Shown here: one piece after another, positions 39,279 to 60,695 of the stretch | How positions within the stretch are numbered: position 1 is the first letter of the stretch | Layout: each line of letters starts with the position of its first letter | NCBI GenBank assembly: GCA_029884455.1 | Contig: JAOUHU010000010.1 | Location: 16,344-80,343, forward strand | From: Gammaproteobacteria bacterium | Lineage (GTDB): Bacteria; Pseudomonadota; Gammaproteobacteria; Steroidobacterales; Woeseiaceae | Length of the DNA stretch: 64,000 bases | Direction: 5' to 3' | Translations under genes and position numbers: made by a program | Notes under the pieces: model-generated | The model's database searches: none | Seen by the model: the letters and a program-made list of their open reading frames with translations, nothing else | What the model was told of the DNA's origin: nothing

Positions 39279-42200
39279 TCGCTGGCCCTCCGGATCTTCT
39301 CCGGCGGTGCCCCGAGACGCCAGAAAACTTCAGGCTCGATGAGCAGCTCATAGCAGCAGTTCTGCGCTTCCCAGGCCGTCGCGATTTGTTCTTGCAGCGC
39401 GTTGATGCGTTGCGTGACCAGCGACTCCTGCTCGACGTCCGCCACATAGGACAGCCGCAGGATTGCGGGTGCCTTGCGTAATTCGTGCAGCAGCAAGTCG
39501 ATTCGGCCCTGCCACTGGTGCCGCATCTCGGTCGTGCCGGGCTCGAACACGGCGTCGGCGATATCCAGCCCGACGACGCGATAGATCGAGGCGCCGAAGT
39601 TGATGCGCAGCGCCTTGCCGCGGGTCGCGCGCTGCACCTGCACCGGCCGCGTCGAGCTGCGGAAGCCGCTCGGCAAGGTGCGGTCATCGAGCTTCAGCAC
39701 GAAATTGCTGCCGCGGCTCTCGTTCGGCGTTATTGCGCAGGTGATGTGATAGCGGCCGTGCGCATCGGTGCTCGCAGCAAGGCCGCGCGCGGTAATTACG
39801 CGCACACCGGCGAGCCCGTCTTCGTCGCCATCCTGGTAACCGTTGCGGTTGCTGTCGTTGAAAACCTTGCCCGTGACATCGGTGCAGTCGAAGGTCGGGT
39901 CGGGCACGATGCGCACGGTGGCCTCGGCCTCCTCGGACAGCGCCGTGCCCGTAAGCGAACTCATCGCCTGCGCACGGTTGACGAATTCACCCTCGGTTAC
40001 GCCTGCGCCGACGGCCAGCAGCAGCTTGATCGTGTGCCGCCCGTCGACGAGCAGGGTCAGGTTCGACCAGACCAGTTCGCGACCCGCAACCACGGGTTCG
40101 CTCGCCACCCCGTCGAAACGTGCCGAGCCTTCGACGTAGTGGAAACCGGCCGGGTAGCGGTCGACCACGGTAATGTCACTGAGGTTGGCGCCGAAAGAAT
40201 TGCTGATCCGGATTTCGTAGGGCACCAGCTGGCCGCGGGTAACGTTCAGCATCGGCGTGGTCTTGCTGACAGCCACCGCACCACCGAGCCGCGGATCGAG
40301 CGGAATATGGTTGTTGAAAAGCTGGCTGGAACCCGGCACCTGGATATCGTTCAGCCGCAGAAACAGGTGATAGGCCGTGCCCGCACTTTGCGCCGGTACC
40401 GACGTCGGCGGCGCGAATTCGGAAGCTTGCGCCTCGCAATAATTCGGCGTTGCGAGCACTGCATCGTTGCTCGATCCGGGACAGGCCGGTACATCGAACG
40501 GCTGCGTCGTGGCATCCGAGGTCGGCGGTATGAACGCCGAGACGCCGGGCTCGTAGCTCGCATCCGGCGCCTGCACACGCAGCAGGTAGGTCGGGCCAGG
40601 CGCACAGTTCGCGTCCGAGAAATTGAGGTCGAACTTGTAATAGCCGTTGCCGACCGTGACTTGGTCCTGCTGGTTGGGATCATCGAAGCAGCTGCCGGGT
40701 ACCGGCAGGCCATTGCGAACGTCGACCATGGTTACGACGGCACCGGCGATCGGGCCGCGCGTAATGGAGTCGTAAATAACACCGTTCGGATCGACCGGCA
40801 TGTTCAGTGCCAGCAGGTTGCTGCCTTCCTGCACATCGATCTCGTCGATACGTTGCAGGCCGTCGGTAAAATCAGAGTCGGTGACACCCAGTAGCGCAGT
40901 CCGGCTGCCGGCGCCAGGCGCGCTGAAGCGCAGCGAGTAGAGATCCGTGGTGCCATAACTCGGAACCACATTGCTGAACCGGTAGTAACCGTCGACGTCC
41001 GTCAGCATTGCGCGCACCAGCAGATTGTTCTGCAACAGCTCGACGGTCCAGCCCTCAAGCGGCCGTTCCAGCCCGCCTGGCACGTCGTCGTGATCGGCGT
41101 CATGCCAGACGTAACCACTGAGCATGCCGGCATTGGGCATCGCACCGACGTCGATGGAAACGCTCGCCTCGGCAAGCTGCTGCGGGTCGTTCCAGTACAC
41201 ACGTCCGGTGTTGGTGATGGTCGTACCTTCGAGCAGGTTCGGATTGATCACTGCCTGGAAGCGCAGCACCACCGTTTCACCCGGGTTCAGCGCACCGTAC
41301 TGGTTGAAGTAATCGGCCGTGATCGTGGTGGTCGCGGCATCGTAGGTCACGCCGGCGCCCAGGCCATTCAGCGTCGCCGACAGGTCGACATAGGCAAGGT
41401 AGCCCGGATTGACCTCGTCGAGATTGTCGGTCATCGCGACGTAGTAGGCCGGCACGGCCGCGATGTTGGTGGCGGTAACCGTGTATTCGAGTGTCGCACC
41501 CGGAAGTGCCGCGCCACCGCCGACAACCGCAACCGCCTTGACGATGGACAGGGCCTGCGCATCGCCAACGACCACGACGGTCGGTTCGGGACCGGTCGCC
41601 GGATTGCCATCGCCATCGGTCAGCAGATTCGGCCGTTCAACAGAATAGACGGTCGCCTGGTTGATAATAAGAGTGCCGGTAGGCACCGCCGCGTTGACCT
41701 GCATGTCGAACTGCACCAGCGCCGACTGGCCCGGATTCAGCACGCCTGCACCATCGGCCGGCAGTGGCGGCGTGAGGTCGGCCGAGCTGACGGGAATACC
41801 CGCGATCAGCGGGAACACGCCGGCGTCCGGCTGGCCGACCGGCAGGCCATTGAGCGTCACCGAGTCGGCCACGTAGGTGAGGTCATTCGGCACGACGTCG
41901 ACCAGTTCCACCGCGGTCGCGGCTACATTGCCGTTGTTGTAAATCGTGATCGAATAGCGCAACACGTCGCCGGGATCGACAATGCCAGGCGTGCCGAGAT
42001 CGACCTGCAGCGCGGCCGACTTCGGCGCAAACAGCAGCGGATAGTTGCCGACCACGTCGCGCGTCGGATCGTCGGCCAGTGGCGTACGCGGGTCGTCTGA
42101 CGGCACATCGGCAATGCCGTAGTCAACCGCGCTGACAAAAGCCTGGTTCGAAATAATCGTGCCGTCGGGCACGTCCGGATACACGATGACATCGAAAACA

Positions 42201-45200
42201 ATCGTCGCGACGTTATCAGCCACGCCGGCGTTCAAAACTCCCGGCGTTGTGTCCTGCGGTGCGTTCACCAGGATGCCGTTGCCGAGCGGCAGGCTGCCGC
42301 CCGCAGCATCGGGCACGGCGATGCCATTAAGCGTCGTGCTGCCGGCAACGTAGCTGGTGTTGCCGGGCACCTGGTCGACAATCTCCACCCCGGTCGCGTG
42401 GTCGGTACCGATATTCTGTACCGTGATCGTGTAGCGCAGCGTCTCGCCGGCGAGCAGCACGTTTGGATCACCGTCGATATAGGACGATGTCTTTTGTACG
42501 CGGAAGGCGGGTGCCGAGGTGATCCGAACCTGGGTCGGATCCTCGTCGCCCGCAATGTTCGGGTCCGCGGCGCCGTTAACATTCGGGTCGTCGCTGACGG
42601 CCACCGGGTTGCCGTTGTACAGCAGGCTCGACTGGTTATAAACGTAACTGTCGTTGCTGATCACGGGCACCAGCACAATTTCAAACTCGACCAGCACGCT
42701 GTCGCCAAGCGGACCGAGGCTCAGATTGCGCACATCGAGCAGGCCGCTACCGGCTGCACCACCGTTCGGGTCCGTGTTGCCGGCATCCGCCCCGGCCGGC
42801 AGCGTAACGACACTCAGCGTCCCGGCCTGGAACATCGGCAATGTGTTGAGCCGATCGAGTTCATCCACCAGGCTGAAATTGGCGACTGAGCTGGCACTCG
42901 CGTTTTCGACGCGCAAACTGTAGCGCAGCGTGTCGCCCGGGCTCGCAACGCTTGCCGGATTGTCGCCACTGCTGACGTTGGCGACGGTCTTTTCGAAAAT
43001 CAGGATGGGCGTAAATTCAACCACCGTGAGCGCGTCCTCGTGGTCCAGCACGCCGACCGTGCCGTTGGTCACGGCGCGCGTGTAGGTGCGTGCATAACTC
43101 GCGTTGGCGCCCGAAAAAATATCGAGACTGAACCACTCGGTCGCGCCGGCGACATTTGTCAGCACCGCATCCGCCTGTGTATCCGCATCCAGCAGCGTGT
43201 CGTAACTAACGATCAGGCGCTGGTCGGGAGCGATGGCCGCGGCTGCTGTCAGCGCCTGCAAGGTAAATGTACAGGCCGGGTCGCCGAGCCAGCTGACCAC
43301 AAAATCGGTACCCTCGGACAACGGCGGCGCAACTGGGGTCACACCATCGGCCGCGAATAATTGTGCCGTGAAGTTCACCGGCGCCGCATCACAGGTGCCG
43401 CCGTCAGCCTGGTTCGGCAGTCGGTCGGTAATCGTCAGGCCGTGTGCTGCGGACGCACCGATGTTGTGCACGTTCAATGTGAATGTTTCCGCGACACCGA
43501 TGCGCATGTTGACCGGGCCGCCTTTTTCGAGTGTCAGCTCGGGCTCGACCACGGTCATCGGCGCACTGCTGCCGGGCAGGCCGGGTCTCTCGGTCACCGT
43601 GTCGTTGTCGGACAGGTTGTAGCTGTAGGCAGCGCTATTAATGAAAGTCAGGCCAGCAAGGTTGTTGCTGGTATCGGCAAGTCGCAACGTGATTTCGATG
43701 ACTGCCTGCTCGCCGGCCGGGATATCGATGCCATTGACCGGGTCTTCGATCACGAGGTTGTCTGGCGTCCCCGTGTTCACAGGCGTCCAATTACCGGCAG
43801 CCGAGATTTTTGTCACGCTGACGAATTCGAGATCGGCTGCCGAAGCACTGAGATCGTCGAGCAAGCGTACATCGTAGAGCGGTGAGCTGTGCGGCACGGA
43901 AGGCACAGTGACCAGGTAGCTGAATTCTTCGCCAATGGTCGCGGTGGCCTGCGTCGTCGCCTTGATGAGCGCAGTCGGTGGCGGGCCCTCGATGATGATG
44001 CGCGTCGGATCCTCATCGCCGGCGATATTCGGGTCCGCCTGGCCGTTGACGTAGGGATCGTCGCTGTCCGCTATCTTGATACCGCTGACGAGATCGGCCT
44101 GGTTGGTCACCAGGGTGCCATTCGGCAGGGTCGAGTTCAGCGTCACATCGAACTGCACCAGCACTTCGCTCGCCACCGGCAGGCTCAAGTTGCCGATGTC
44201 AAGCACGCCGGCACTGTTGGTACCGCCGTTCGGGTTGGTGCCGGACGTGTCGGCGCCAGGCGGGATCGTTGCGGCGACCAGCGTAAGGGATCCCGGTACA
44301 AACACCGGCACCGGATTCATTGCACCCAGGTCGTCGCGGAAACTGAAATTGGCGAGCGCACCATCCGTTGTCTGCAGGCGCAACGTATAACGCAGCGTAT
44401 CGCCCGGGCCAGCAGTAGTCGTCGGATTGACGCCGGTACTCAGGTTTGCGACGGTCTTTTCGAAGAAGTAGCCGCGCAGTTCGACGACGGTCGTGTGTGC
44501 GTCCTCATGGTCCGCTACGCCAGGTGTGCCGTTGGTCAGCACACGATTGAAAACAACCCGGTCCGTATTGCTGCTGTCGCCGTTAAACCATTGGCTTGCG
44601 CCGACGACGTTGGTGAGCGCGGTGCCGTCCTGGCTGTCCGCATCGAGTCTGGTCCGGTAGTTAATAACCAGGCGTTCATTGGCACCGATCGCCGCCTGCG
44701 CCGTAAGCATGGTCAGCGACAGGCGGCAGGTCGGAGCGCCGGCAAAACTGAAGGTGTAGTCGCTGCCTGCCGCGAGCGGGCCTTTGCCGGGGACCGGCGT
44801 CGTACCGTCCGCTGCAAACACCTGCGCGTCGAGGATTTCCGGGGTCGTATCGCACATGCCCCCTGTGGCGCCATTCGGCAGTTGGTCAAGCAGTGTCACA
44901 TCCCAGGCATCGGTCAGACCGGTGTTGTGAACGTTAATACCGAAGTTGCCCCACTCGCCGAGGTTGAGTGTCCGGCCGATCGTTGCCGGGCCAATCTTGG
45001 TCACTATGAGTTCCGGTGTAGCAATCGTCAGTGGCTCGGAAATACCCCACTCACCTGGCAACGGCTCGTAAAATATTCCTTCGATAAGGCGGCCGAAATC
45101 CCACTTCGCAATATTGATGAACTGGGTGCCGGGCGCGTTCGTCGGCGTGTCCTGCAGAACCACATCCAGCTCGATGATGAACTGTTCGCCGGCCGGGATA

Positions 45201-45898
45201 ATCGGAAAATTGTCGAAAGTCAGAACGCCGCCGACATTCGAAAAGGTGTGCGGTATCGGCGCGCCACTCGTTTCCCAATACGCGCGATAGCCAAGAAAAG
45301 TCAGGTCTACACCCGTTGCATTCAGATCGTCGACGATCGTAATGCCGTGCAGATTATTCACAGAGCCCTGCGTATTGATTACAGTCGTCGTTGCCGGATC
45401 AAACAACACCGGGCTGGTCAGCGACCAGGTAAACGGCACGCCGATCGCAGCGGTGGTCTGGCCGGGCGGATTTTGCTTGTCAATCTTTTCAACCGGAATC
45501 AGCAGGTTCTGGCAATTTGCCTGGATCGTCGATGACGAACCGTTCGTGAACCAGATCTTGTGTTCGAGCACGGCGTTACAGGACATCTGCCCGGTGTGCA
45601 CGACGTTATCGAAAATGATCAGCCAGCGTTCATTGGTTTGCCCGGGCCTCGTGAAAAACGAGAAGTTCGTGGTCAACGGATTGCTGGCCGGAAAATTGCG
45701 CACCGTGCAATTGGTATCGATGTTTATGTTCGACGGCGGATTGGGTGTGACGAAGCCATCGAGCGTAGCGTTTGGAAACGTCGAGCAGTCGGTGGCCTGA
45801 GCGTTCGCCGTGGCCGCCGCGAACAGCAATGTGATCGCAGCCAGCAGGCGCACGCATGTGGTACCCAAGCGGAGATTTCTATTGCTGATAAGACCCAT
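39275..45898 (-). CDS. Giant secreted DUF11/SdrD-B-type surface protein
   Basis: 2207 residues with a signal peptide to about 33 (ATANAQA). Residues ~140-640 and ~645-1135 are a duplicated super-unit: an IPAGEQ-containing beta domain, a PEL-K-GP DUF11 domain with GGxCDxxP and AADGxTPV, and a FEKTVANxSxGxNP domain ending DPNIAGDEDPT. Three more DUF11 domains follow (RVQKTSSYIDG, LQVDLGTPGIVDPG, LSIVKAVAVVGG), then SdrD-B/Cna-B modules (SGYVWHDADHDDVPGG; TGKVFNDSNRNGYQDGDEDG). The last ~120 residues resemble a degenerate OmpA-like alpha/beta domain (DAVFEPGTTEMRH). Function inferred: adhesin or surface fibre, with expression gated by the upstream c-di-GMP riboswitch. Confidence 0.75.
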   Translation of the reverse strand: MGLISNRNLRLGTTCVRLLAAITLLFAAATANAQATDCSTFPNATLDGFVTPNPPSNINIDTNCTVRNFPASNPLTTNFSFFTRPGQTNERWLIIFDNVVHTGQMSCNAVLEHKIWFTNGSSSTIQANCQNLLIPVEKIDKQNPPGQTTAAIGVPFTWSLTSPVLFDPATTTVINTQGSVNNLHGITIVDDLNATGVDLTFLGYRAYWETSGAPIPHTFSNVGGVLTFDNFPIIPAGEQFIIELDVVLQDTPTNAPGTQFINIAKWDFGRLIEGIFYEPLPGEWGISEPLTIATPELIVTKIGPATIGRTLNLGEWGNFGINVHNTGLTDAWDVTLLDQLPNGATGGMCDTTPEILDAQVFAADGTTPVPGKGPLAAGSDYTFSFAGAPTCRLSLTMLTAQAAIGANERLVINYRTRLDADSQDGTALTNVVGASQWFNGDSSNTDRVVFNRVLTNGTPGVADHEDAHTTVVELRGYFFEKTVANLSTGVNPTTTAGPGDTLRYTLRLQTTDGALANFSFRDDLGAMNPVPVFVPGSLTLVAATIPPGADTSGTNPNGGTNSAGVLDIGNLSLPVASEVLVQFDVTLNSTLPNGTLVTNQADLVSGIKIADSDDPYVNGQADPNIAGDEDPTRIIIEGPPPTALIKATTQATATIGEEFSYLVTVPSVPHSSPLYDVRLLDDLSASAADLEFVSVTKISAAGNWTPVNTGTPDNLVIEDPVNGIDIPAGEQAVIEITLRLADTSNNLAGLTFINSAAYSYNLSDNDTVTERPGLPGSSAPMTVVEPELTLEKGGPVNMRIGVAETFTLNVHNIGASAAHGLTITDRLPNQADGGTCDAAPVNFTAQLFAADGVTPVAPPLSEGTDFVVSWLGDPACTFTLQALTAAAAIAPDQRLIVSYDTLLDADTQADAVLTNVAGATEWFSLDIFSGANASYARTYTRAVTNGTVGVLDHEDALTVVEFTPILIFEKTVANVSSGDNPASVASPGDTLRYSLRVENASASSVANFSLVDELDRLNTLPMFQAGTLSVVTLPAGADAGNTDPNGGAAGSGLLDVRNLSLGPLGDSVLVEFEIVLVPVISNDSYVYNQSSLLYNGNPVAVSDDPNVNGAADPNIAGDEDPTQVRITSAPAFRVQKTSSYIDGDPNVLLAGETLRYTITVQNIGTDHATGVEIVDQVPGNTSYVAGSTTLNGIAVPDAAGGSLPLGNGILVNAPQDTTPGVLNAGVADNVATIVFDVIVYPDVPDGTIISNQAFVSAVDYGIADVPSDDPRTPLADDPTRDVVGNYPLLFAPKSAALQVDLGTPGIVDPGDVLRYSITIYNNGNVAATAVELVDVVPNDLTYVADSVTLNGLPVGQPDAGVFPLIAGIPVSSADLTPPLPADGAGVLNPGQSALVQFDMQVNAAVPTGTLIINQATVYSVERPNLLTDGDGNPATGPEPTVVVVGDAQALSIVKAVAVVGGGAALPGATLEYTVTATNIAAVPAYYVAMTDNLDEVNPGYLAYVDLSATLNGLGAGVTYDAATTTITADYFNQYGALNPGETVVLRFQAVINPNLLEGTTITNTGRVYWNDPQQLAEASVSIDVGAMPNAGMLSGYVWHDADHDDVPGGLERPLEGWTVELLQNNLLVRAMLTDVDGYYRFSNVVPSYGTTDLYSLRFSAPGAGSRTALLGVTDSDFTDGLQRIDEIDVQEGSNLLALNMPVDPNGVIYDSITRGPIAGAVVTMVDVRNGLPVPGSCFDDPNQQDQVTVGNGYYKFDLNFSDANCAPGPTYLLRVQAPDASYEPGVSAFIPPTSDATTQPFDVPACPGSSNDAVLATPNYCEAQASEFAPPTSVPAQSAGTAYHLFLRLNDIQVPGSSQLFNNHIPLDPRLGGAVAVSKTTPMLNVTRGQLVPYEIRISNSFGANLSDITVVDRYPAGFHYVEGSARFDGVASEPVVAGRELVWSNLTLLVDGRHTIKLLLAVGAGVTEGEFVNRAQAMSSLTGTALSEEAEATVRIVPDPTFDCTDVTGKVFNDSNRNGYQDGDEDGLAGVRVITARGLAASTDAHGRYHITCAITPNESRGSNFVLKLDDRTLPSGFRSSTRPVQVQRATRGKALRINFGASIYRVVGLDIADAVFEPGTTEMRHQWQGRIDLLLHELRKAPAILRLSYVADVEQESLVTQRINALQEQIATAWEAQNCCYELLIEPEVFWRLGAPPEKIRRASE

Positions 45899-46269: not shown

Positions 46270-47673
46270 TCAGGCCGCAGGCAGGAAATCGATCGGATAA
46301 ATAATCGTCACGGCCACGATGTTTTCTTTCGCGCCGAAGTCGAAACTGCGCACGCGATCGACTACCTGGTCCGCGAGCATCGGCGCATCCATGCTGGATG
46401 CATAGAGCTTGCAGAGCGACACGCTGCCATCGGGTTCTATGGTCAACTGCAGCACGAGTTGTCCGCGCAAGGTCGGATCGTTGCGCAGCTCACGGTTATA
46501 CAGCCGATACAAGGCGGCCTTGTAGCGGTCGAACACAATCTGGATTTCCTCGTCTGTGCGCCCAGCCGACGCACCGCTACTCAGCGGCCGATCGGGGCCA
46601 TCGCCGCCGCCAATGTTGCTGGCCACGCGTGAAACGGCAACGCCATCCATGCCACCACCCCCGCCGCCAAAGTCGCGGCTGAAGTCGGCGAGATTGATGC
46701 CGCCACTGCTGCCCGGCGCCGAAGTCGTGACCATCATGCGTTCCGGCCTGCCGGTGGCGTTTTCGCCGGCATTGCTGAGACGCGCCTGGGAACCGAGCTG
46801 TGCCGACGGACGCAGTTCGGCGCGGCTTGCGAAACTGTCGCGAAAGGCGAGCAGACCCTTGGTCTTAACCTGTTCACGCGTATCCGGCTGCTCGGCCTCA
46901 GCCAGCACCGGTTGTTCATCCTGCACCGGAGACGGCTGCGGCTCGGCTTCGGCGACCAGTTCCGGTTCAGGCTCGGGAAGCTCGTCGGGTATTTCCGGCT
47001 CCGGTTGAGTCACGGGAGGCGGTGGTGGTGGCAGGCGCTCCTCGCGCACCAGCCTGGCAACGCGCTCCGGCAACTGGGCATCTTCGGGCCGGTTCATGAT
47101 TGGCACCGCAATAACACTCAGCAGGAAAGCAAATGCCAGCGACGCCGCCAGCGAACTGAGCAGGGACCGATTCAGGCGGCGATCTTCTTCAGCGCCGCGC
47201 GTCCAGGGCATTATCTGCGCGTGGTACGGAATTTCCGGTTCGTCGCGCTCAGGCACCCATTCGCTATTACGATTTTCCTGCTGTTCGATAATGTCCTGCA
47301 GATCGTAATGCAGGTAGTCGAGTTGACTGTTCTGCGCGCCAATTTTTTCAATAATTGACTCGCGCCTGGCTTCGACGCGCTCGATTTCGCGGCCGTATTG
47401 GTCGAACTGATCACGCGCATACTCGATGCGTTCGGCCTGCACCACGCTGCTGCCGTCCTCTTTCCAGAACAGCGCCGCAGCTCCGAGCCGTTCCAGTTCT
47501 TCGAGAGAGGAACAAATTGACGCCAGCAATTCGTAGCGCGGGTGCAGCGCTGCCAGTTGCTCGAGCTCAGCATCGACAGTTCGAAGCTCGCGCTCGAGAG
47601 TATCCAGCGTCCGTTCCGACTGCTCGACTTTCTCTCTTAACGACTGTTCGTGTGCCGATGAATCAGAGCTCAC
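46270..47673 (-). CDS. AgmX/PglI-type TonB-like energy transducer
   Basis: 467 residues from a GTG start with a good AAGGTG RBS; there is no in-frame ATG for 145 codons. The cytoplasmic N-terminus is a charged coiled coil (~1-125), followed by one membrane segment at ~169-192 (LLSSLAASLAFAFLLSVIAV), a Pro/Glu-rich periplasmic linker (RLPPPPPPVTQPEPEIPDEL), and a C-terminal domain (~375-467: IVFDRYKAALYRLYNRELR, GQLVLQLTIEPDGSV) of the AgmX/PglI TonB-like type. It is last in the motor operon. Likely role: passing force from the ExbBD motor to envelope parts, like GltG/GltJ of Myxococcus. Confidence 0.8.
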   Translation of the reverse strand: MSSDSSAHEQSLREKVEQSERTLDTLERELRTVDAELEQLAALHPRYELLASICSSLEELERLGAAALFWKEDGSSVVQAERIEYARDQFDQYGREIERVEARRESIIEKIGAQNSQLDYLHYDLQDIIEQQENRNSEWVPERDEPEIPYHAQIMPWTRGAEEDRRLNRSLLSSLAASLAFAFLLSVIAVPIMNRPEDAQLPERVARLVREERLPPPPPPVTQPEPEIPDELPEPEPELVAEAEPQPSPVQDEQPVLAEAEQPDTREQVKTKGLLAFRDSFASRAELRPSAQLGSQARLSNAGENATGRPERMMVTTSAPGSSGGINLADFSRDFGGGGGGMDGVAVSRVASNIGGGDGPDRPLSSGASAGRTDEEIQIVFDRYKAALYRLYNRELRNDPTLRGQLVLQLTIEPDGSVSLCKLYASSMDAPMLADQVVDRVRSFDFGAKENIVAVTIIYPIDFLPAA

Positions 47674-47697: not shown

Positions 47698-48201
47698 TTA
47701 GCGCGCTGCAACCTGTGCCGGTATCTGGATAACGGCGAGCGAGACATTCTCGTAGCCCTCGCCCGTACAGGCCGACATGATTTTCCGGACAACAACAAAT
47801 GGCACTGACTTGTCTGCGAGGATTGTCACCTCCTGGCTTTCCGCAACCGCCATTGTGTTCGGCCCGATTACACTTTCCTTCAAATCAGCGAGCCGTGATG
47901 CAAGCGAATCCATTGTGTTCTGCTTGTCTTCCAATATGTCGGCAACGCGTGCTACAACCTTGCCTTGTACCATGACGTCCTCCGGGCTAACCGAAATGAT
48001 CACGGTTTCGCGCGGTTTCGATTCTTCCCGGGACTCAGGTAGTGACACATCCTTCGGCGCATCCAGCAATTCCACTGATCCGGTATTCACTAGCAGGAAA
48101 AAAACGAGAATCGTGAACACGTCCATCAGCGACGTCAGATTCATTTTTGAAATCTTCAGCCGGTTGCGGGACATACGTTTGATGCGGCGTGTATTTCTCA
48201 T
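47698..48201 (-). CDS. ExbD/TolR-type motor subunit, second copy
   Basis: 167 residues with a basic cytoplasmic start (MRNTRRIKRMSRNRLKISK), one membrane segment (MNLTSLMDVFTILVFFLLVN) and a periplasmic domain. The Asp in LMDV aligns with the proton-carrying Asp of TolR/ExbD (VTPLVDV). It overlaps the first ExbD gene by four bases. It should form, with the ExbB-like protein, the pmf-driven stator; AglQ/AglS hold this position in the Myxococcus gliding motor. Confidence 0.88.
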   Translation of the reverse strand: MRNTRRIKRMSRNRLKISKMNLTSLMDVFTILVFFLLVNTGSVELLDAPKDVSLPESREESKPRETVIISVSPEDVMVQGKVVARVADILEDKQNTMDSLASRLADLKESVIGPNTMAVAESQEVTILADKSVPFVVVRKIMSACTGEGYENVSLAVIQIPAQVAAR

Positions 48202-48704
48202 GGCGCATCTCCGACGGAAATTTCGGAAAACAGTGCGACCAGTTCGAAGCTCGGCTCACCGTCCAACGGCATTTCGACCGGCCTTTCGACAGCCCGGACA
48301 ATATCCATGACCTGAATCAGGTAATCGTAGGGTATGCGTGCCTCCATTAGCACGGACGCAGCATCCTGCTGCGGATAGGTCTGCTTCAGCTCCACCATGT
48401 AGTCGGACAAGGTCTGTAAATCGTATTCCTCGTCTTTGTTTGGAATCGCGGCGATAACCGACTCGCCGTTTGTAATCTCGATCCGGTTTTCGCGCACGAT
48501 GACTTCCGGTGTAAAACCCTGTTCGCCGTTGGACGGTCCACCGGCCGAACTGGGCAGGTTTAATTCAACAATAGTGAGGCGCGAAAATACGGCTGTAATG
48601 AGCAGGAACGGCACTAGCACCACCATGAGATTGAGGAAGGTGGTGACATCAATTTCGTGCGCGCCGCTCTTGGTGCGCCGCTTGTAATGGTGACGCCGGG
48701 CCAT
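48198..48704 (-). CDS. ExbD/TolR-type motor subunit lacking the usual Asp
   Basis: 168 residues with one membrane segment (IDVTTFLNLMVVLVPFLLI) and a periplasmic domain. Aligned to the ExbD/TolR pattern (INVTPLVDV) the proton-binding Asp is replaced by Asn (FLNL), while an Asp sits six residues earlier where Asn is usual. It lies five bases after the ExbB gene. The pair of unlike ExbD subunits suggests an asymmetric stator in which only one conducts protons in the normal way. Confidence 0.88.
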   Translation of the reverse strand: MARRHHYKRRTKSGAHEIDVTTFLNLMVVLVPFLLITAVFSRLTIVELNLPSSAGGPSNGEQGFTPEVIVRENRIEITNGESVIAAIPNKDEEYDLQTLSDYMVELKQTYPQQDAASVLMEARIPYDYLIQVMDIVRAVERPVEMPLDGEPSFELVALFSEISVGDAP

Positions 48705-48709
48705 TGCGA

Positions 48710-49366
48710 TCAGGCCTCAGCCGCTGACATTCTCTTGGCGCGCCTCGAAAACACGTTCAGGGCTTTGACCGAGGCCATCTCGAGACTGTCAACGATATCG
48801 CCGGTCTTGCTGGTCAGAATCGCGTGCACAATCAAGAGCGGTATTGCGACCATGAGGCCAAACGCCGTAGTGTTCATAGCGACGGAAATACTGGCGGACA
48901 GCAGGTCTGCTTTTTCCGCCGGGTTGGCGTTCGCCACTGCTGTAAACGCCTGGATCAGGCCCATGATCGTACCGAGCAGGCCGAGCAAGGTCGCGATGCT
49001 GGAGGCAAGCGCCACGTAGCCAGTACGCTTTTCCAGGCGCGGTACGATTTCCATCATGCTTTCTTCCATCGCAATTTCGATATCTTCGCGGCGGCGTACG
49101 GCACCCTGCAGCGACAAGCCCATGTTAAGCACTTGTGAAATTGTTGAGTCGTCTTTACTGGTCATCTCGCGTGCAGTGTCGAACTCTCCGTTTGCGAGCA
49201 GTGGCTGCACTTTGTCCCAGATCAGGCGATTCTTGTTGGTCACAAGCGTCAACGTTATGTAGCGCTCTGCCGCAATCGCGACGCCTACTGCGAACACCAG
49301 CAGGATCGGATACATGAACAGGCCACCAGATCCGAAGAAAGCGACAACCGAGTAGAAAAGGTCCAT
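48710..49366 (-). CDS. ExbB/TolQ/MotA-type proton-channel subunit
   Basis: 218 residues with three membrane segments (~12-33, ~117-141, ~160-184), the ExbB/TolQ topology. The core LLGLLGTIMGLIQAF and the third helix AMNTTAFGLMVAIPLLIVH carry the conserved channel threonines. It forms a pentamer around ExbD dimers in known systems. In this cluster it is followed by two ExbD genes and the AgmX-like transducer, as in aglRQS plus glt genes. Confidence 0.92.
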   Translation of the reverse strand: MDLFYSVVAFFGSGGLFMYPILLVFAVGVAIAAERYITLTLVTNKNRLIWDKVQPLLANGEFDTAREMTSKDDSTISQVLNMGLSLQGAVRRREDIEIAMEESMMEIVPRLEKRTGYVALASSIATLLGLLGTIMGLIQAFTAVANANPAEKADLLSASISVAMNTTAFGLMVAIPLLIVHAILTSKTGDIVDSLEMASVKALNVFSRRAKRMSAAEA

Positions 49367-49507: not shown

Positions 49508-49810
49508 TCACTCGCCGGAGCGGATTTCGTAATAGTTCAGCTCGCGCAGGAAGACTTCCTTGTCGACCGGTTGCGCACGATCATCGAGCGACTCCGTGAG
49601 GCTGATATCATCGCCGAGTTCCGATGACTTCCACGGTACGATGACCAGTGATTTGGGCGCTTCCTCATTACCGAGAATCGACATGCCGGAAAGCGTCTTT
49701 GGCGAATTGATGCCATCGCCGTCGGCCACCTGTTCCTGAGCAGCAGGTTCCTCGGCCTGCACGCCGCAGCCAAGCAGCAACAGCGCCAGCCCGCCAATCA
49801 GTCTGTTCAT
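49508..49810 (-). CDS. Small lipoprotein of the motor cluster
   Basis: 100 residues from the ATG at 49810, which overlaps the TPR lipoprotein stop as ATGA; the track opens 16 codons earlier inside that gene. The signal MNRLIGGLALLLLGCG has a lipobox Cys at 15. The mature part is acidic, without a known domain, and includes SLVIVPWKSSELGDD. I do not recognise the family. Its position suggests an outer-membrane lipoprotein partner of the TPR proteins. Confidence 0.6.
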   Translation of the reverse strand: MNRLIGGLALLLLGCGVQAEEPAAQEQVADGDGINSPKTLSGMSILGNEEAPKSLVIVPWKSSELGDDISLTESLDDRAQPVDKEVFLRELNYYEIRSGE

Positions 49811-50460
49811 CGCTGCTCCTCCCGCTGATTCAGGCGGTACTGCAGGTCCTTGATCCACATTGACGCCTCGTCATCGCTCGGCACGGTCGTCATGTAAGCC
49901 TGGTAGTTCTGTAAAGCGCAATCGAGGTCCGCAAGATACAGATCGCAGAGCACGGCCAGGTTGCGCCGCGCATAGTGATAACCCGGGTACACGGCGAGTG
50001 CCGCTTCGTAATTGCTCCTGGCTTCTCTGAAACGGCCGGTCTTGCGCAGCACAATGCCGAGCTCATTGTTGGCGATCGGGTGACTGGGATTATTCTCCAG
50101 CGCCAGCCGCAGGTTGCGTTCTGCCTGCACGAGATCGCCTGCGCGGTGGTAAGCAATGCCGAGGTCGATGCGTGGCGCACTGAGCTCTGGTGTTGCGTCG
50201 GCAACCGCTTGCAACAGGCGAATTCCCTCCTGCTGGTTGCCACGCTCGAGCTCGCTCACTGCCTGCTCGTAGTCGAGCCGGGTGTCATCGCCAACCCTGG
50301 CGTCCTCGGTAATCGTGAATCCGATTTGCTCCTGGATTTCAATATGCGCGACAGCCGGTTTCGACCGGGGAACGCTGGACGCACAAGCCGCAATGAAAAA
50401 TGCGCCGACGGACAGCGTTGCCAGGTTGCGCCAGTGAATAATTGCCAGCCTTGTCATCAT
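49807..50460 (-). CDS. TPR lipoprotein
   Basis: 217 residues. The signal ends in a lipobox (FFIAACAS, Cys about 26). At least three TPR units follow: DYEQAVSELERGNQQEGIRL, HRAGDLVQAERNLRLALENN and RKTGRFREARSNYEAALAVY. TPR lipoproteins of this size act as pilotins or scaffolds in envelope machines (PilF/Tgl-like). It lies 15 bases after the 1019-residue TPR gene and overlaps the next gene, so it belongs to the same operon. Confidence 0.75.
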   Translation of the reverse strand: MMTRLAIIHWRNLATLSVGAFFIAACASSVPRSKPAVAHIEIQEQIGFTITEDARVGDDTRLDYEQAVSELERGNQQEGIRLLQAVADATPELSAPRIDLGIAYHRAGDLVQAERNLRLALENNPSHPIANNELGIVLRKTGRFREARSNYEAALAVYPGYHYARRNLAVLCDLYLADLDCALQNYQAYMTTVPSDDEASMWIKDLQYRLNQREEQR

Positions 50461-50475: not shown

Positions 50476-53400
50476 CTACTCGACACCGCGTGGCGGTGTC
50501 GTGGAAAGCTGCGCCGTTGCCTCAGGTAAGACTTCCGGCGGTGCGATCGGCATGCGATAGGCGTAACTGTCAATCGACCCCAGGTAGCCGCCGCTGATTT
50601 CATTTTTCGCGTAGCGACCCGGCATGACCAGCGCCAGCTTGTCGAGACTTTTCTGAATCCAGGGATTGAACAAACCACCCGCCAGCAGCTCGAAATTCTT
50701 TTCGTGCACGGCGATGCCTTGTTCTTCGAAGGGATACGCCTCTTCCTCGAGCACCAGGTCGTAGTCGACTTTCTCCGCCGCGCTCAGACCGTCCGGGCGT
50801 TCTGAATTGAGCAGTGCTGTGCTGAAATTAAAATAAACCTCGGCAATGTAATAGGTTGCTGCCGCGGTCACCTCCGCAACCTGGTAATTGACCAGCTCCT
50901 CGAGGTGCGCCATCGCCACATCCATGCGCCGCTGCTTCTCTGCGAGGCTCTGCTCGAACGGCTGCGTGAGCGCCAATCTCGCGAATTCCTGGTACTGCAA
51001 CTCGGCCAGCACCAGCGCTGCCTTGGCGGCCAGATAACGGCTGCGATCGGTACGCTCGGCACCAGCGTCACGATCGACAGACACAATGCCGGCCAGCGCT
51101 TCGTGGTAGCGCTCGTAATCCGATTGTTGCTTGAAAATCTCGGCGAGCCGGGAGCGCGTTTCGAGTGCAACGTCAATGGGTTTTGGATATTCGCTGACGT
51201 ATTGTTCGTAGACGCGAATCGCATCGGCAACCGCTTCCGCCTCGTCATAAAGATCGCCCGCAATCAGTAATGCACTGCGCGCGATCTCGGCATCCGTGGC
51301 TTCCGCAGCGATGCGTTCGTGCTCAGCGGCTGCGCGTTTCGTCTGGCCATCTTCACGATAGACATTCGCGAGCTGCTTGGTCGCCTCGGTCGCCAGTTCG
51401 TGCTCCGGGTGCGAGCTTCTGAATTCTTCCAGCACGTTCGAAGCAAAGGTCCAGTCCTTGAGCCTGATCAACGCCGCGGCGGCGTCGTATTCCGCTGCCG
51501 TACGGATGTTCGAGGTTGGCGCGACTTCCTTGATGCGCAGGAAGTGCTGCGCGGCAAGGCCATAGTCTTCGAGCAGATTTGCCTGCTCACCCTGCTTGTA
51601 GATCGCTGCGGCGAGCCCGTCGACCACGGCAGCACGCTTGTCGTCATCTGCCGGAGTCAGCGACAGGACGTTCGCGTAGGCCTGCTCGGCATCGGTAAAC
51701 TCGTTCAGATCCATCGACGAGTTGGCGACCACGGCCCAGGCCGAGCGCTTGAGCTCCCTGTCGGCGGACGGGTAACGCGCGATGAGTTTTCTCGCCGCAT
51801 CGATCGCCAAAGGCAGATCCTTCATCTCGTAGAGATCGTCTGCCGCGTGACCGAGCACAGTGGCTGCCTGTTCATGCTCCGGGAAGGTATCGGCAAATCG
51901 CAGCGAGCTGTCCACCGTCAGCCGTTTGACATCACGCTGCAACGCACCACTGGCAACCTTGAGATGTTCGCGATGCGAGTAAATGGCCGCATAGCCGGCG
52001 GCGGCTGCCTGTGCATGCGCCGCGTAATTGTAGGCGGTACGCTCATATTCGACCGCCGCTTCACCGAAATTCTCGTTTTCGAGCAGCAGGTCGGCGAGCT
52101 GGTAATTGATCTGCGGCGTTGCACTATCGGCCGGAAACGACCCCAGGTATTGCCGGTACCAGCGTTGTGCCTCGCTGAAATTAGCTGGCCGTTCATCGAC
52201 CAGGGACGCTTCCTGGTACAGGGCATGGTAATGGCCGGCCAGGTCCGTCAGGTTGACCTTCAGGAAGCCAACCACCTCAGGCGATTCAGCCGCATCGAAG
52301 TGGTTCCAGTACTCGGCATCGAGCGCATAGGTAGCCGCAAATTGTTTTTTCGCCTCGACCACGAGTAACGGGAACCCGGCTTCGGCGTATATCTCGACGA
52401 CCCGCATGCCGAAGTGCGGTGATACCTTGTGCAGGGGATTCAACGCGACAAACGATTTGTAAACCGATGCCGCATCTTCATAGCGCAGCTTGCTGAAGTA
52501 GAACTCGCCGAGATTGCCGTAGATTTTGTCCGCGTAGCTGCGCCGCCCATAACGCGCAAAATAGTCGTCGACCACCTCCGGTCCGCCGAGATTGGAGAAA
52601 CTCAGACTGATAACGCGGAACGTATCGGCGAGCCGGTGTTCGTCATCCTCCTGCTCAACTTCGTCAAAGTCATAGCCGATTGACAGCCGGTAATCGAGCA
52701 TCGCAATGAATTGGCGCAGGCCCTCCTCGTAGAGTTCCTGCTTGTACAGCGACCAGCCCAGTTTGTAGAGCGCAAGCTCATGATAGCTCGAGGTCGGCCC
52801 CAACCTGATAACCGCAGCATAGGCATCTTCGGCGTTGAGGTATTGCCGGCGTACAAAATAGTACTCGCCGCGCCGGAAATGGACTTCATCCAGATGTTTC
52901 GAATACGGACTCGTACTGATCAGGCGGTCCATGACCTGCATGGCCTGATCCGGCTCGCCTATCTCGTCATAGGCGCGCGATAACTGGTAAAGCACCTGGT
53001 CGTTACGCTCGTAATTTGGATAGCTCTCAAGAATCTGCCAGTACATCTTGATCGCTTCACGCGGCCCCGCCGGTGCCGTAACGACTTCGCCGCCCGGCAA
53101 CGGTGCCGCAAAGTCGTCCGCATTGGACAGCAGGCGCTCGCGCGCAGTGGCGCGGGCCTCGAATTCCTGTTCCGATTCCGTCGACCCGGGTTGCTGCGTA
53201 TTGCTCTTCTCCGCGAGTATGCGCCCACCCGTCGTTGCCGCTTCCGGGGCAGCCATTTCGACAATCGCACCGTTGCCAATCACACCGTAGGCCTGCTCGA
53301 GCTGCAGGTCCGCCAGTCGTCGCATGGCCTCGGGCGTCATGCCGCTCTCACTGGTCTCGTCAAGATACCGGCGGTAACTTTCTGCGGCGCGTTCAAGACT

Positions 53401-53535
53401 GTCCGCAACGTAAATTTCATCAATATCGGCCGGCACCGCATCAAGCTCGGCAAGCGTGCCCGAGCGATCACCGCCGCTGGCGCAGCCGAACAATCCGGCA
53501 CTGCAAAGCAACAATCCGATGCAATTGCGCCTCAT
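50476..53535 (-). CDS. Large TPR lipoprotein
   Basis: 1019 residues. The N-terminus (MRRNCIGLLLCSAGLFGCASG) has a lipobox Cys at 18. The rest is mostly helical repeats of tetratricopeptide type (ESYPNYERNDQVLYQLSRAY; FRRGEYYFVRRQYLNAEDAY; SRLAEIFKQQSDYERYHEAL), around 15 or more units. Large TPR proteins are part of the periplasmic Glt complex in Myxococcus (GltI/AgmK, GltE); equivalence is not shown here. Start overlaps the upstream gene's stop (ATGA). Confidence 0.75.
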   Translation of the reverse strand: MRRNCIGLLLCSAGLFGCASGGDRSGTLAELDAVPADIDEIYVADSLERAAESYRRYLDETSESGMTPEAMRRLADLQLEQAYGVIGNGAIVEMAAPEAATTGGRILAEKSNTQQPGSTESEQEFEARATARERLLSNADDFAAPLPGGEVVTAPAGPREAIKMYWQILESYPNYERNDQVLYQLSRAYDEIGEPDQAMQVMDRLISTSPYSKHLDEVHFRRGEYYFVRRQYLNAEDAYAAVIRLGPTSSYHELALYKLGWSLYKQELYEEGLRQFIAMLDYRLSIGYDFDEVEQEDDEHRLADTFRVISLSFSNLGGPEVVDDYFARYGRRSYADKIYGNLGEFYFSKLRYEDAASVYKSFVALNPLHKVSPHFGMRVVEIYAEAGFPLLVVEAKKQFAATYALDAEYWNHFDAAESPEVVGFLKVNLTDLAGHYHALYQEASLVDERPANFSEAQRWYRQYLGSFPADSATPQINYQLADLLLENENFGEAAVEYERTAYNYAAHAQAAAAGYAAIYSHREHLKVASGALQRDVKRLTVDSSLRFADTFPEHEQAATVLGHAADDLYEMKDLPLAIDAARKLIARYPSADRELKRSAWAVVANSSMDLNEFTDAEQAYANVLSLTPADDDKRAAVVDGLAAAIYKQGEQANLLEDYGLAAQHFLRIKEVAPTSNIRTAAEYDAAAALIRLKDWTFASNVLEEFRSSHPEHELATEATKQLANVYREDGQTKRAAAEHERIAAEATDAEIARSALLIAGDLYDEAEAVADAIRVYEQYVSEYPKPIDVALETRSRLAEIFKQQSDYERYHEALAGIVSVDRDAGAERTDRSRYLAAKAALVLAELQYQEFARLALTQPFEQSLAEKQRRMDVAMAHLEELVNYQVAEVTAAATYYIAEVYFNFSTALLNSERPDGLSAAEKVDYDLVLEEEAYPFEEQGIAVHEKNFELLAGGLFNPWIQKSLDKLALVMPGRYAKNEISGGYLGSIDSYAYRMPIAPPEVLPEATAQLSTTPPRGVE

Positions 53536-55415
53536 GGCTCAAGACTCCTTGCCTGCGCCTGCGTCGCACGGTCATAACTGTCAGCCAGCGCGAAGCGCGC
53601 CTTGTCACCATAGCGCTCCAGCCGCGACCGCCGTGCCACCAGTTCCTCAACAGCAACGAGCTCCAGCAGGTGTCCCTGGCGTGCCATCAAGATCTGTATC
53701 ACCTGCGTTGCCTCGGCAACCTTGCTGCGCAGTACCCGGATTGGCATTTCGTAACCGTTATAACTGTGCTCGGCCGCCTGGCGCGTGCGCACATACTCGT
53801 CGTATTTCTGTTGCGCCACTGCCATGGCTGCATCTAGTTCACGGAGATTCTGATCGAAGCGCGTCAGGCGCTCGTGGTATTCGGTCTGCAGCGTCCAGAA
53901 CAGCAGACCCTTGAGGCGGGCGACGCGTTGCAAAGTGGACGGCGCAGCGCCCGAAGGCGAAGCCTGCAACTGTTCTTCAATAAGCTCGAGGCGCGCAAGG
54001 ATCTGTTGCTCCTCGCGAGTCGCAAGGAATTCGGGCCGCGGCGTGGTCAACAGGTCATCACGCTTTTTCACCAGCATCTTGTGCTGCTCAACACGCAGCC
54101 GCATGCGCGAGTCGAATTCACGGAACTCGCTGTCTACCTCTGGCAATAGCGGCTCGTAATGATCGTGGCGAATCGCAACCATTTCGTCATAGGCATCGAA
54201 ATCGGTTTGCCAGCTTTTCAGCTTGCGCTGCAGGTCCGCGAGATCGAGGTAATTCTGCAGGCCCGCCTGGAAATCGTGCGAAGCGAGCAATTCCATCAGG
54301 TAGTAGGTTTCGGGCGCGTTTTCCAGCGAGCGCAGCCGAATGACCCAGTTTTTGTCCTGGCGGATCTCTTCGCGAATCAACGCCTCGAGAAACGCGCCGT
54401 CGCGAATGCTGTCGATCGACAGGTTGAGCTTGTCGATCTCGACCCCGTAGGCGTCCAGTGCATGCCCGTAGGAGATCGCCGCACGACCGTGGACATTGAG
54501 TTCGCCGTAGGCATACGGCAGTGCCAGCAGTGCCTCCTGTGTGCCGCTATCTGTAACTTCACGCCCGGCGAGGATGCTCCACGGAACGACCGCCCGTTCG
54601 GCTCGCCCAAGTGACATGTTTGCCCAGCCCGAGCTAAGCAGCGCCTGGTTGGAAAACGGTCCGTCAAGGCGCACGCGGTTCAGGTATGGTATCGCCGCAT
54701 CCAATTTGCCTTCTTCGAGCAACAGGGTGCCGAGCACCAGGTTGGACTTGTCGACGATCGCCAGGTCGGCCGGGTCTGCGCTTGTAATGCGTCCGGCCTT
54801 GTCGAGCTGCTCGATGGCCTGTTGTTGCCGGCCATCCTGCAAGTAGGCGATACCGAGGTTGTAACTGGCGAACGCACCAAAACCATCGGATTTCTCGAGC
54901 TTGCCCAGCACTTGCGCAGCATCAGCGGGCCGGCCCTGCGCGAGATAAATGTTGGCCCGCAAAAACTCGATGTCGTCGCGGATCGACGCCGGCACTTCGC
55001 CGTCGATGCGATCGAGAGCGCGCAACGCATCGTCGGCCTGGCTCTTCTGAAAGTGAATCCGCGCCAGGCGGTATGCGGCGTCGTTGCGCACCACTTCATC
55101 GACGGCGCCCTCGAGGACAGCCGTGATGGCCCTGCCCGCGCGGTGGTGCATGCGGTAACGAAGCTCGAAGTCGCCGAGCGAGAATTCTGCATCGTTGATG
55201 TAGGCGTACAGCGTGTCGAGCTGCGGCTCGTCAATGTTGCCATGCTGCCTGACTTCGCTGTCGAGCCGTTGCAATGCTTCGAAGTATTGCCCCTGGTGCG
55301 CGTAATACAGCGCCTCGCCGAAGTAGAGGTCCTTCAGCTCAGCGGCAAAACCAGGGCTTGTTGCCAGACCAGCAAGCAGCAGGAGCCCGGTTCCGGAGAA
55401 CGGTGCTCGACCCAT
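53532..55415 (-). CDS. Periplasmic TPR protein
   Basis: 627 residues. A signal peptide (GLLLLAGLATSPGFA, cut about 24) precedes TPR units such as YFGEALYYAHQGQYFEALQR, DDALRALDRIDGEVP and GRPADAAQVLGKLEKSD over the first ~330 residues. The C-terminal ~250 residues are rich in charged helices (EFREFDSRMRLRVEQHKMLV) and probably coiled coil. It is the second gene of the cluster, coupled to the 1019-residue TPR lipoprotein and three bases after the 176-residue protein. Confidence 0.75.
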   Translation of the reverse strand: MGRAPFSGTGLLLLAGLATSPGFAAELKDLYFGEALYYAHQGQYFEALQRLDSEVRQHGNIDEPQLDTLYAYINDAEFSLGDFELRYRMHHRAGRAITAVLEGAVDEVVRNDAAYRLARIHFQKSQADDALRALDRIDGEVPASIRDDIEFLRANIYLAQGRPADAAQVLGKLEKSDGFGAFASYNLGIAYLQDGRQQQAIEQLDKAGRITSADPADLAIVDKSNLVLGTLLLEEGKLDAAIPYLNRVRLDGPFSNQALLSSGWANMSLGRAERAVVPWSILAGREVTDSGTQEALLALPYAYGELNVHGRAAISYGHALDAYGVEIDKLNLSIDSIRDGAFLEALIREEIRQDKNWVIRLRSLENAPETYYLMELLASHDFQAGLQNYLDLADLQRKLKSWQTDFDAYDEMVAIRHDHYEPLLPEVDSEFREFDSRMRLRVEQHKMLVKKRDDLLTTPRPEFLATREEQQILARLELIEEQLQASPSGAAPSTLQRVARLKGLLFWTLQTEYHERLTRFDQNLRELDAAMAVAQQKYDEYVRTRQAAEHSYNGYEMPIRVLRSKVAEATQVIQILMARQGHLLELVAVEELVARRSRLERYGDKARFALADSYDRATQAQARSLEP

Positions 55416-55418
55416 AGA

Positions 55419-55949
55419 TTACCAATCCCCAACCTGGATAACGTCTTTACCAAGTCCCGGTGCCGCGAGGGCAATTCCGAGTGTCTTGGGAGTGGCGCCT
55501 TTCGAGAACGAATAGCTGCCGGACTCGCTGAAATCCTTGCCATTGGCAAGCTTGCCCAGCATCGTGACCCGAAGTTCATGCGCACCGGTGGTGATATTGC
55601 CGGTGTAAGCGCGCTGCACACCGCCTTTGTGCAAGGCCTCAAGTTCCTGAAAGCTGTATATATGATGTGTCGCGAGCTGGCCGTTGATTTCAATCTTCAC
55701 GGCATCGAGTCGAAAATCCTCGTCGTCGGCAACGGAAATAAACACCGCGACTTGCGTATTCGACGGGAACAGCAGGCGCTCCTCGAGATTCCCGAGTTCG
55801 GCAGCGATATCAAGCACGTCCGACTTTATTTCCTGCACCTGGCCATCCAGGCTCTTCATGTCGTTGCCGGATAATTGCTCGGCACCGATCGTTACCGAAA
55901 CTCCACAGACGATCAGCAGGGATACTAGAATTTGGCTGCAATAACGCAT
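55419..55949 (-). CDS. Secreted protein, first gene of the motor cluster
   Basis: 176 residues. The signal peptide (QILVSLLIVCGVSVTIGA) is cut at about 23. A short coiled coil (QVQEIKSDVLDIAAELGNLE) precedes a beta-rich domain with FISVADDEDFRLDAVKIEIN and YTGNITTGAHELRVTMLGKL, which reads like an Ig- or carbohydrate-binding-type fold. I do not recognise a named family; an equivalent role to small periplasmic Glt proteins is speculation. It opens a run of genes with gaps or overlaps of only a few bases. Confidence 0.65.
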   Translation of the reverse strand: MRYCSQILVSLLIVCGVSVTIGAEQLSGNDMKSLDGQVQEIKSDVLDIAAELGNLEERLLFPSNTQVAVFISVADDEDFRLDAVKIEINGQLATHHIYSFQELEALHKGGVQRAYTGNITTGAHELRVTMLGKLANGKDFSESGSYSFSKGATPKTLGIALAAPGLGKDVIQVGDW

Positions 55950-56755: not shown

Positions 56756-57899
56756 GGCGCACGGCAGCAAAGAGCAGAGTCGCCAGTGCGGCATAACAGA
56801 TGGTGCTGAACTGCAGGACAAAGTAGTTGTCGGTGAGAACCACGATGCGACTCGTCACCCAGGGGCTGACCGCAGTACCCAGAGTCGCGCCCAGCAACAG
56901 CGTCGACACGAGTCGCGGTGTCGGCTGCCTGACCATTTGTGTTGCGTAGGACAGCACGACCTTTAGCAAGCTCAGGTTCGCGAAGCCCCAGAGAAACGCG
57001 AACACTTGCAACATTGACAGCTCGCCCGAAATCCACAGCGGGATCGAAAACAGGCAGGTCAGAACGGCGGATGCCAGCACAAGTTTTCGAACGCCCAGAT
57101 GCAGTACCAACCAGGCGACAAACAGTTGTGCGACGAACAGGCCGATCCAGAACAGCGTTACGAGCCGGCCCGCTTGCTCGACAGTCGCGCCCAGCCTGGT
57201 CTCGGCATAATTGGGCAGCCACCAAAGCATCGAGTACTGGCCGAGTGTGTACAGGAACAGGGCGGCAACACACAGCCAGTACGATAGCGGCCAGCGTTCG
57301 CGGGGTGCGGCGACTGCCCGGCCGGTCTGACTGTCAGGAAAACTCGAAATCAGGGTCAGTACCACGATGATGGCGGCAATGACTGCCACGAACTGGTAGA
57401 TACCGGCCCAGTGCAGGCCGGCCGCCACCAGCGCCGTTGCAATTGCGGCACAAAGGAAGCCCGCCGTGCTAAAACACGCATCCGTGATCACGAGCATCGA
57501 GGCACGTCGCTCCGCCACGTAAATTCGCGAAATGATGAGTGCGGCGGACGCGAGTCCCAGTCCGCTGCAAACACCAACGACGCCGAGCGACATGCCTATT
57601 GTCGTCAGGCTGCCGGCAAAATTCAGTAGTAGCAGGCTGGCGACAATCAGCAGGTATGCGCCGCCCAGAACAGTACGTACCTGAAAGAAGGTGAAAATGA
57701 CCAATGCCAGCGCTGCACCGGCCAGGTTACCGAAAGTCAGCCAGCCGAACTGAGCCGTGACATCGGTGATGGACTGACCGAACAGTGCTGACATCGGGCC
57801 GGAGATGATGCCGATCGGTGCGAGCATGCCCGACATTACGAAGTAGGCCAGGAAGCTGGCCAGCGTAATGCGCTTTTTGTTGTCTAGGAAACCGGCCAT
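56697..57899 (-). CDS. MFS transporter (TsgA-like)
   Basis: 400 residues with about 12 membrane segments; the first is SFLAYFVMSGMLAPIGIISG. The loop after TM2 is not a clear GXXXDRXGRR motif. General similarity is to TsgA-type carriers of the major facilitator superfamily. Its start lies inside the end of the amidohydrolase gene (16-base overlap), so it probably carries a purine or nucleoside that is the substrate, or product, of that enzyme. This link is inference. Confidence 0.8.
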   Translation of the reverse strand: MAGFLDNKKRITLASFLAYFVMSGMLAPIGIISGPMSALFGQSITDVTAQFGWLTFGNLAGAALALVIFTFFQVRTVLGGAYLLIVASLLLLNFAGSLTTIGMSLGVVGVCSGLGLASAALIISRIYVAERRASMLVITDACFSTAGFLCAAIATALVAAGLHWAGIYQFVAVIAAIIVVLTLISSFPDSQTGRAVAAPRERWPLSYWLCVAALFLYTLGQYSMLWWLPNYAETRLGATVEQAGRLVTLFWIGLFVAQLFVAWLVLHLGVRKLVLASAVLTCLFSIPLWISGELSMLQVFAFLWGFANLSLLKVVLSYATQMVRQPTPRLVSTLLLGATLGTAVSPWVTSRIVVLTDNYFVLQFSTICYAALATLLFAAVRLRRAMTAAATLQHRHDRNP

Positions 57900-60692: not shown

Positions 60693-60695
60693 AGA

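Follow-up and report, generated by a model that had tools for sequence, protein, structure and literature searches.

The window, a 64,000-nucleotide stretch of DNA from a gammaproteobacterium of the family Woeseiaceae (contig JAOUHU010000010.1 of assembly GCA_029884455.1), encodes a motor related to the gliding motor of Myxococcus but with two unlike axle proteins, D1 and D2, of which D1 has asparagine at the position of the proton-carrying aspartate; this asparagine is kept across several phyla. The reading that we favour, at a rough probability of 0.6, is that D1 and D2 form a heterodimeric axle within an AglR-type ExbB pentamer, in which D2 would be the sole proton carrier while D1 would present a fixed neutral residue. 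The 5:2 architecture, with a pentamer surrounding a dimer, is predicted from homology to ExbB and TolQ, and a 1:1 D1-D2 heterodimer inside a single ExbB ring is plausible on the evidence set out below.

Organisation of the core operon

The core operon lies on the minus strand, running from 55949 to about 46270 in the window, and comprises nine compactly arranged genes (Table 1), a set found again in the long relative loci, each gene in 70 to 73 of 73. It brings together in one operon the gene set of the AglRQS-Glt core complex (Luciano et al. 2011, PMC3169522): TPR proteins of the GltC, GltD and GltE types, one ExbB/AglR protein, two ExbD-type proteins and a GltG-like TonB protein, clustered with a further gene as in the published complex; the models for GltE and GltC score below their cut-offs. 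In the TonB-like protein, the TonB_C model exceeds its Pfam cut-off, and the GltG and GltJ models give weaker matches than NF033768. The core complex, consisting of gltD, gltE, gltG and gltC together with aglR, aglQ and aglS, was described in Gammaproteobacteria and in Geobacter, where its function was called unknown, together with an additional gene that is absent from Myxococcales; gliding was considered unlikely to result from the core complex alone (PMC3169522). Teredinibacter and Marinobacter are mentioned there as having several copies of it. One of the two small proteins without a known family (49508-49858 and 55419-55949) may be the product of this unnamed additional gene, the former being a candidate for it.

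Table 1. Genes of the core operon, and codons referred to in the text, with their positions in the window
Feature	Position	Strand	Length (aa)	Remarks
Protein of no known family	55419..55949	-	176	First gene of the core operon; no match; in 70/73 long loci
TPR protein, GltC-like	53532..55415	-	627	GltC model E=3.4e-7, below its cut-off; in 72/73 long loci
Large TPR lipoprotein, GltD position	50476..53535	-	1019	TPR/YbgF/BamD-like models; in 73/73 long loci
TPR lipoprotein, GltE-like	49807..50460	-	217	TPR Pfams; GltE model E=3e-9, below equivalog cut-off
Small protein without known family	49508..49858	-	116	No Pfam/NCBIfam match; in 73/73 long loci
ExbB/TolQ/AglR-family ring subunit	48710..49366	-		PF01618 93.6 bits; aligned with 5sv0 ExbB
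Val162 codon of ExbB	48881..48883	-		E. coli E176 position; coordinates computed from the ORF
D1, ExbD/TolR-family subunit, AglQ position	48198..48704	-	168	VTTFLNL; PF02472 51.7 bits
Asn25 codon of D1	48630..48632	-		AAT; E. coli ExbD Asp25 position
Pro32 codon of D1	48609..48611	-		Seven residues past Asn25; coordinates computed from the ORF
D2, ExbD/TolR-family subunit, AglS position	47698..48201	-	167	LTSLMDV; PF02472 60.9 bits
Asp27 codon of D2	48121..48123	-		From ORF coordinates and alignment
TonB-like force transducer, GltG/GltJ type	46270..47673	-	467	AgmX/PglI C-terminal domain, NCBIfam NF033768 55.3 bits (cut-off 40)

The gene order ExbB-D1-D2-TonB-like is fixed among the relatives, with D1 always beside D2 and one ExbB gene for every two ExbD genes. 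The D1 and D2 reading frames overlap by 4 bases at the locus, and the same ATGA overlap is present in 132 of the 215 operons whose D1 has a residue other than an acid at the proton site (hereafter non-acid), an arrangement that fits equal synthesis of both proteins. The genome has a paralogous copy of the core operon (L039, contig C130, 8284-10963), which encodes the same Asn/Asp pair.

Two giant genes, which overlap each other by 4 bases, stand directly downstream of the core operon in the window (34131-45898) and are missing from the paralogous one. One encodes a protein of 2207 aa with DUF11/SdrD_B domains, the other a 1715-aa protein that has an OmpA domain; the gene for the larger is present in 37 of 39 loci of the same type and in 0 of 15 paralogous operons. 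These surface-type proteins may be the surface load of the motor. The purine salvage genes at 57884-61676, for an amidohydrolase, an 8-oxoguanine deaminase (over the NCBIfam cut-off) and a nucleoside hydrolase, are apparently unrelated to it.

The proton site in D1 and D2

Both ExbD-type proteins score above the PF02472 cut-off of 25.4 bits that defines the ExbD/TolR family, and AF2 models searched with Foldseek give each of them one N-terminal transmembrane helix followed by an ExbD/TolR periplasmic domain. The periplasmic fold of the D1 model (pLDDT 85.8) corresponds to those of TolR 5by4 (probability 1.00) and ExbD 8pek (0.99), at a weak E-value of 0.03; the D2 model matches ExbD 8pek and 8vgc as well as TolR 5by4. 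The alignment of D1 with E. coli ExbD obtained with phmmer (HEIDVTTFLNLM against HEINVTPFIDVM) is free of gaps, so that N25 of D1 sits on the essential Asp25 of the E. coli protein. A first-pass annotation of this DNA had proposed from the motifs alone that D1 has Asn in place of the proton-carrying Asp and that D2, with LTSLMDV, keeps it. The alignment bears out the former claim, and the latter holds too, D27 of D2 aligning to the same Asp25 and Asp occupying this position in 284 of 284 D2 proteins. The transmembrane Asp that is essential in the proton-conducting axles of ExbD, TolR and MotB is therefore lacking in D1 and present in D2; canonical ExbD proteins compared alongside have it in 20 cases out of 20.

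Chance or sequencing error as the source of Asn25 is excluded by its conservation: before most of the targeted sampling, Asn was found in 185 of 187 distinct D1 relatives, and Asp in 189 of 189 D2 relatives. The possibility raised with the original observation, that a different acidic residue of D1 occupies the proton site, was also examined. Within residues 20-38, no Asp or Glu occurs in any of the 215 non-acid D1 proteins. The Asp six residues upstream, D19, was rejected as the true proton site, being Asn in 86 of the same 215 proteins and aligning with an Asn of E. coli ExbD. Two working sites might still remain in the axle if Asn25, which as an asparagine is capable of deamidation, were converted to Asp, or if some other residue or ion took the place of the acid; we regard this as very improbable, given that Ser and Cys stand for Asn in some relatives and that the D1 helix offers no other acid. 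Asn-Leu, moreover, is not a fast deamidation motif.

Conservation among relatives

Relatives were collected at four taxonomic levels around the window's genome (genus, family, order and class), as well as from contigs of named genomes and from Myxococcota, Desulfobacterota and Acidobacteriota. In genomes sampled evenly across the class, D1 was detected at E<=1e-30 in about 71 of 321, with a clear gap to other ExbD proteins. The collection yielded 284 distinct D1-D2 gene pairs spanning Gammaproteobacteria, Myxococcota, Desulfobacterota and Acidobacteriota, in which the residues at the D1 and D2 proton sites are respectively Asn and Asp in 206, Ser and Asp in seven, Cys and Asp in two, and Asp and Asp in 69 (two of these last, L002 and L313, being canonical ExbD pairs); the reverse arrangement was never seen. 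The ratio of 206 Asn to 69 Asp is not a measure of prevalence, because the Asp lineages were over-sampled on purpose. The two pairs with Cys at the D1 site are those of L289 and L292 (TPIMCLFIILVP), each with a D2 partner of the Asp type.

The non-acid state of D1 (Asn, Ser or Cys in 215 of 284) is thus maintained across orthologues. Orthologues with Asp at the D1 site, which the first-pass annotation had named as evidence against its reading, do exist, but they are confined to separate lineages, namely the AglQ-like Myxococcota, one group of Desulfobacterota and one gammaproteobacterial family, and there are none among the close relatives. The Asn codon is AAC or AAT across about 200 divergent operons of four phyla, including both paralogous operons of this genome. 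In a genome with duplications of gene pairs and of entire operons, the substitution might be put down to functionally meaningless drift in a redundant copy; an Asn fixed to this extent, in a D1 that always stands intact beside D2, leaves that explanation with hardly any probability at all. Outright decay of a redundant copy is contradicted by the conservation data and was rejected.

Coupled changes in D1 and ExbB

The ExbB protein of the operon retains both pore threonines of the ring subunit, T133 and T167, which correspond to T148 and T181 of E. coli ExbB, but it lacks the glutamate in TM3 of MotA, TolQ and ExbB, Val162 taking the place of E. coli Glu176. Wherever they could be aligned (233 operons, acid and non-acid alike), both threonines are invariant, so that the ExbB ring still has the look of a proton channel. 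The position equivalent to E176, by comparison, follows the state of D1: Glu is present in 0 of 205 non-acid operons, where the residue is mostly Val, and in 44 of 66 acid operons. A second residue, Pro32 of D1, follows it too, being found in 210 of 215 non-acid and 0 of 69 acid D1 proteins, and in none of the D2 proteins examined. In one Asp/Asp operon (L321), the residue at position 176 of an AglR-like ExbB is His, not Glu.

The history of these changes was traced on a tree built from ExbB, D1 and D2 together (134 rows, 500 columns), from which the residue sites under test had been excluded. As for ancestry, D1 and D2 descend from a single ancient duplication, one on each side of it (SH-aLRT 98 and 96). 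The AglQ-like proteins of Myxococcota fall with D1 on one side of a 98% branch, as a clade of their own with the same gene order; they are 157-160 aa long, with Asp at residue 27-29, and are followed by AglS-like proteins of 186-188 aa (in M. xanthus, AglQ has 162 aa and AglS 194 aa). On the combined tree, the acid/non-acid state of D1 switched three times independently, in every case on a well-supported branch and with a difference at Pro32. The first switch concerns the AglQ-like Myxococcota, which form a separate acid clade without Pro32; the second, a clade of Desulfobacterota (L287, L344-L356) nested among Asn types, without Pro32 and with the ExbB Glu (ISEAMNCT as against ISVAMNTT); and the third, a clade belonging to a single family of Gammaproteobacteria in the window's order (L233, L364-L387), likewise nested among Asn types and without Pro32. 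It appears from this topology that Asp was regained in D1 in at least two lineages, and at least one of these apparent regains, that in Desulfobacterota, is accompanied by a regain of the ExbB Glu. Within the gammaproteobacterial Asp family, ExbB position 176 is mostly still Val, so that Glu is not obligatory alongside an Asp in D1; Glu nevertheless arose there twice more (L366; L367/L375/L382), and in no case did it arise in a non-acid lineage. As the Asp lineages make up only about 13% of the tree length outside the AglQ-like clade, the probability that three of three Glu gains would fall in them by chance is, as a rough figure, about 0.002. The independent events behind the covariation are few, and with three switches an independent-pairs sign test is unable to reach p=0.05. 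The coupled changes at ExbB 176 and at Pro32 show a proton path that has, to judge from the comparison of operons, been rebuilt rather than randomly lost.

The same evidence bears on the idea that D1 is an accessory subunit, lying outside the pore or acting in the periplasm only, with D2 as the sole axle and the Asn as the mark of a lost old role. When one copy of a duplicated gene loses an essential residue, its role has usually changed, and the stem branch of D1 is long (1.08 changes per column). Yet residues 20-40 of D1 form a near-invariant pore-helix motif (N25, L26, L30, P32, F33-L35, A38, F40), unlike a lipid-facing or decaying helix, and two lineages that branch from within the Asn types have Asp, accompanied by the change at Pro32 and, in one of them, by the change in ExbB. 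These nested lineages indicate that the D1 site is still at the proton path, and an accessory role for D1 is accordingly improbable.

A proposed heterodimeric axle and its mechanism

A mixed axle of D1 and D2 is made plausible by the adjacency of their genes, their frequent translational coupling, the single ExbB gene, the covariation of D1 with ExbB, and the existence of ExbB-D1 fusions. The fusions occur in two Desulfobacterota (L298:37-2633 and L299:722-3330), where an unfused ExbB comes first, then a fusion of 434-439 aa that joins ExbB to a D1 of the Ser type, and then a separate D2 of the Asp type; this arrangement places D1 in the ring complex. When 270 operons (effective number 155) were subjected to direct-coupling analysis, many couplings between D1 and D2 emerged, to be read in the light of there being no contact map as a positive control and of the transmembrane couplings reflecting the acid and non-acid clades.

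Two kinds of ring might exist instead, one with D2 homodimers as an ordinary two-site motor and the other with D1 homodimers as an inactive ring serving as anchor, decoy or assembly regulator. ExbD, TolR and MotB are homodimeric in the solved 5:2 structures (PMC12215075), and the pairing of AglQ with AglS is stated to be unknown (PMC9389320), although a hand over hand alternation of the two has been speculated upon (PMC9120999). If only D2 rings did work, it would be hard to see why ExbB position 176 tracks the residue in D1, with Glu in no non-acid operon, or why so few parts of D1 are as well conserved as its transmembrane helix. We therefore consider two kinds of ring unlikely, though less so than the other alternatives.

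In the solved 5:2 motors the two Asp residues are in different surroundings, one at the threonine ring and the other facing the cytoplasmic cavity (PMC12215075). According to the turnstile model, charge is exchanged between them every 36 degrees, and 10 ions pass per turn (PMC9389320). Substitution of Asp by Asn has been used as a stand-in for the protonated acid in published work on such motors (PMC12215075, PMC9389320). In the heterodimeric axle that we favour, the Asn of D1 (sometimes Ser or Cys) would likewise imitate a permanently protonated Asp, and a D1 fixed as Asn would make the charge swap between the two axle sites impossible. D2 alone would load and release protons, each of which would move the ring through the full distance from one ExbB to the next. 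If the heterodimer is real, it follows from the two-site turnstile model that such an axle would use 5 protons per turn in steps of 72 degrees, instead of 10 in steps of 36, with the torque ceiling halved. The retained threonine ring would fit ongoing proton transfer through D2, and the loss of the ExbB Glu and gain of Pro32 might be the means by which ring and axle were adapted to a single site. D1 and D2 would then be free to specialise, for example one on peptidoglycan and the other on the GltG-like transducer, and the output might be a pull or torque on the envelope-spanning Glt core complex.

Several comparisons bear on this proposal. E. coli motors of the ExbB-ExbD/TolR type have in common with the present system an ExbB ring with two pore threonines, the single-helix ExbD fold and a TonB-like transducer; they differ in having one ExbD or TolR as a homodimer, with two Asp residues and Glu at ExbB 176, where the present system has unlike ExbD proteins, one Asp and Val. 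For the AglRQS motor of M. xanthus, a species with a further pair of this kind (MXAN_3003-3005), a review gives Asp in both AglQ and AglS (PMC9389320); in the present operon the AglQ counterpart by position, D1, has Asn and Pro32, and ExbB lacks the Glu. AglQ D28 is essential (PMC3858216, PMC9120999), and its replacement by Asn abolishes proton conductance (PMC3858216); such a substitution is not tolerated in an AglRQS motor built for two acids, which counts against the one-site reading. The paired TPH-vWA partners of TolQ-like rings (PMC12204202) are also heterologous, axle-type pairs with one ring protein, but they have a conserved pair of Asp residues, one per monomer, and here the proteins are of the ExbD type and one monomer is without Asp.

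Of the interpretation first attached to the pair, the unlike nature of the subunits and the conserved loss of the acid from one of them have stood, and are now joined by the coupling to Pro32 and ExbB 176; the suggestion that the asymmetry could affect the direction of the motor has not been sustained, nothing having been found that bears on direction. More broadly, we give about even odds to the operons representing a widespread class of 5:2 motor with an obligate heterodimeric axle and one proton site, with fixed subunit roles, steps of 72 degrees and 5 protons per turn, a class that would have been switched between one-site and two-site forms at least three times through coordinated changes at the Asp/Asn and Pro positions of one ExbD and at the Glu position in TM3 of ExbB.

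Significance

The operon family itself is already known. In the literature searched, no report was found of the Asn at the D1 site, of the partner changes or of the repeated switching, an absence that is not certain as the primary account of AglRQS (Sun et al. 2011) lay outside the search; searches on ExbB E176 with D25, and on ExbD heterodimers with AglQ and AglS, gave nothing useful. These three features are, within those limits, what is new here.

Relatives normally carry the very substitution that, in M. xanthus AglQ, puts an end to proton conductance. The operons offer, as an experiment of nature, a way to ask whether proton motors such as ExbB-ExbD and MotA-MotB need two alternating acids or only one. 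With one acid replaced in about 200 operons, and apparently restored in at least two lineages together with matching changes in the motor, they provide a comparative and genetic system that could be used to establish the number of protons per step, which residues determine the mechanism, and whether AglQ and AglS have distinct roles in gliding bacteria.
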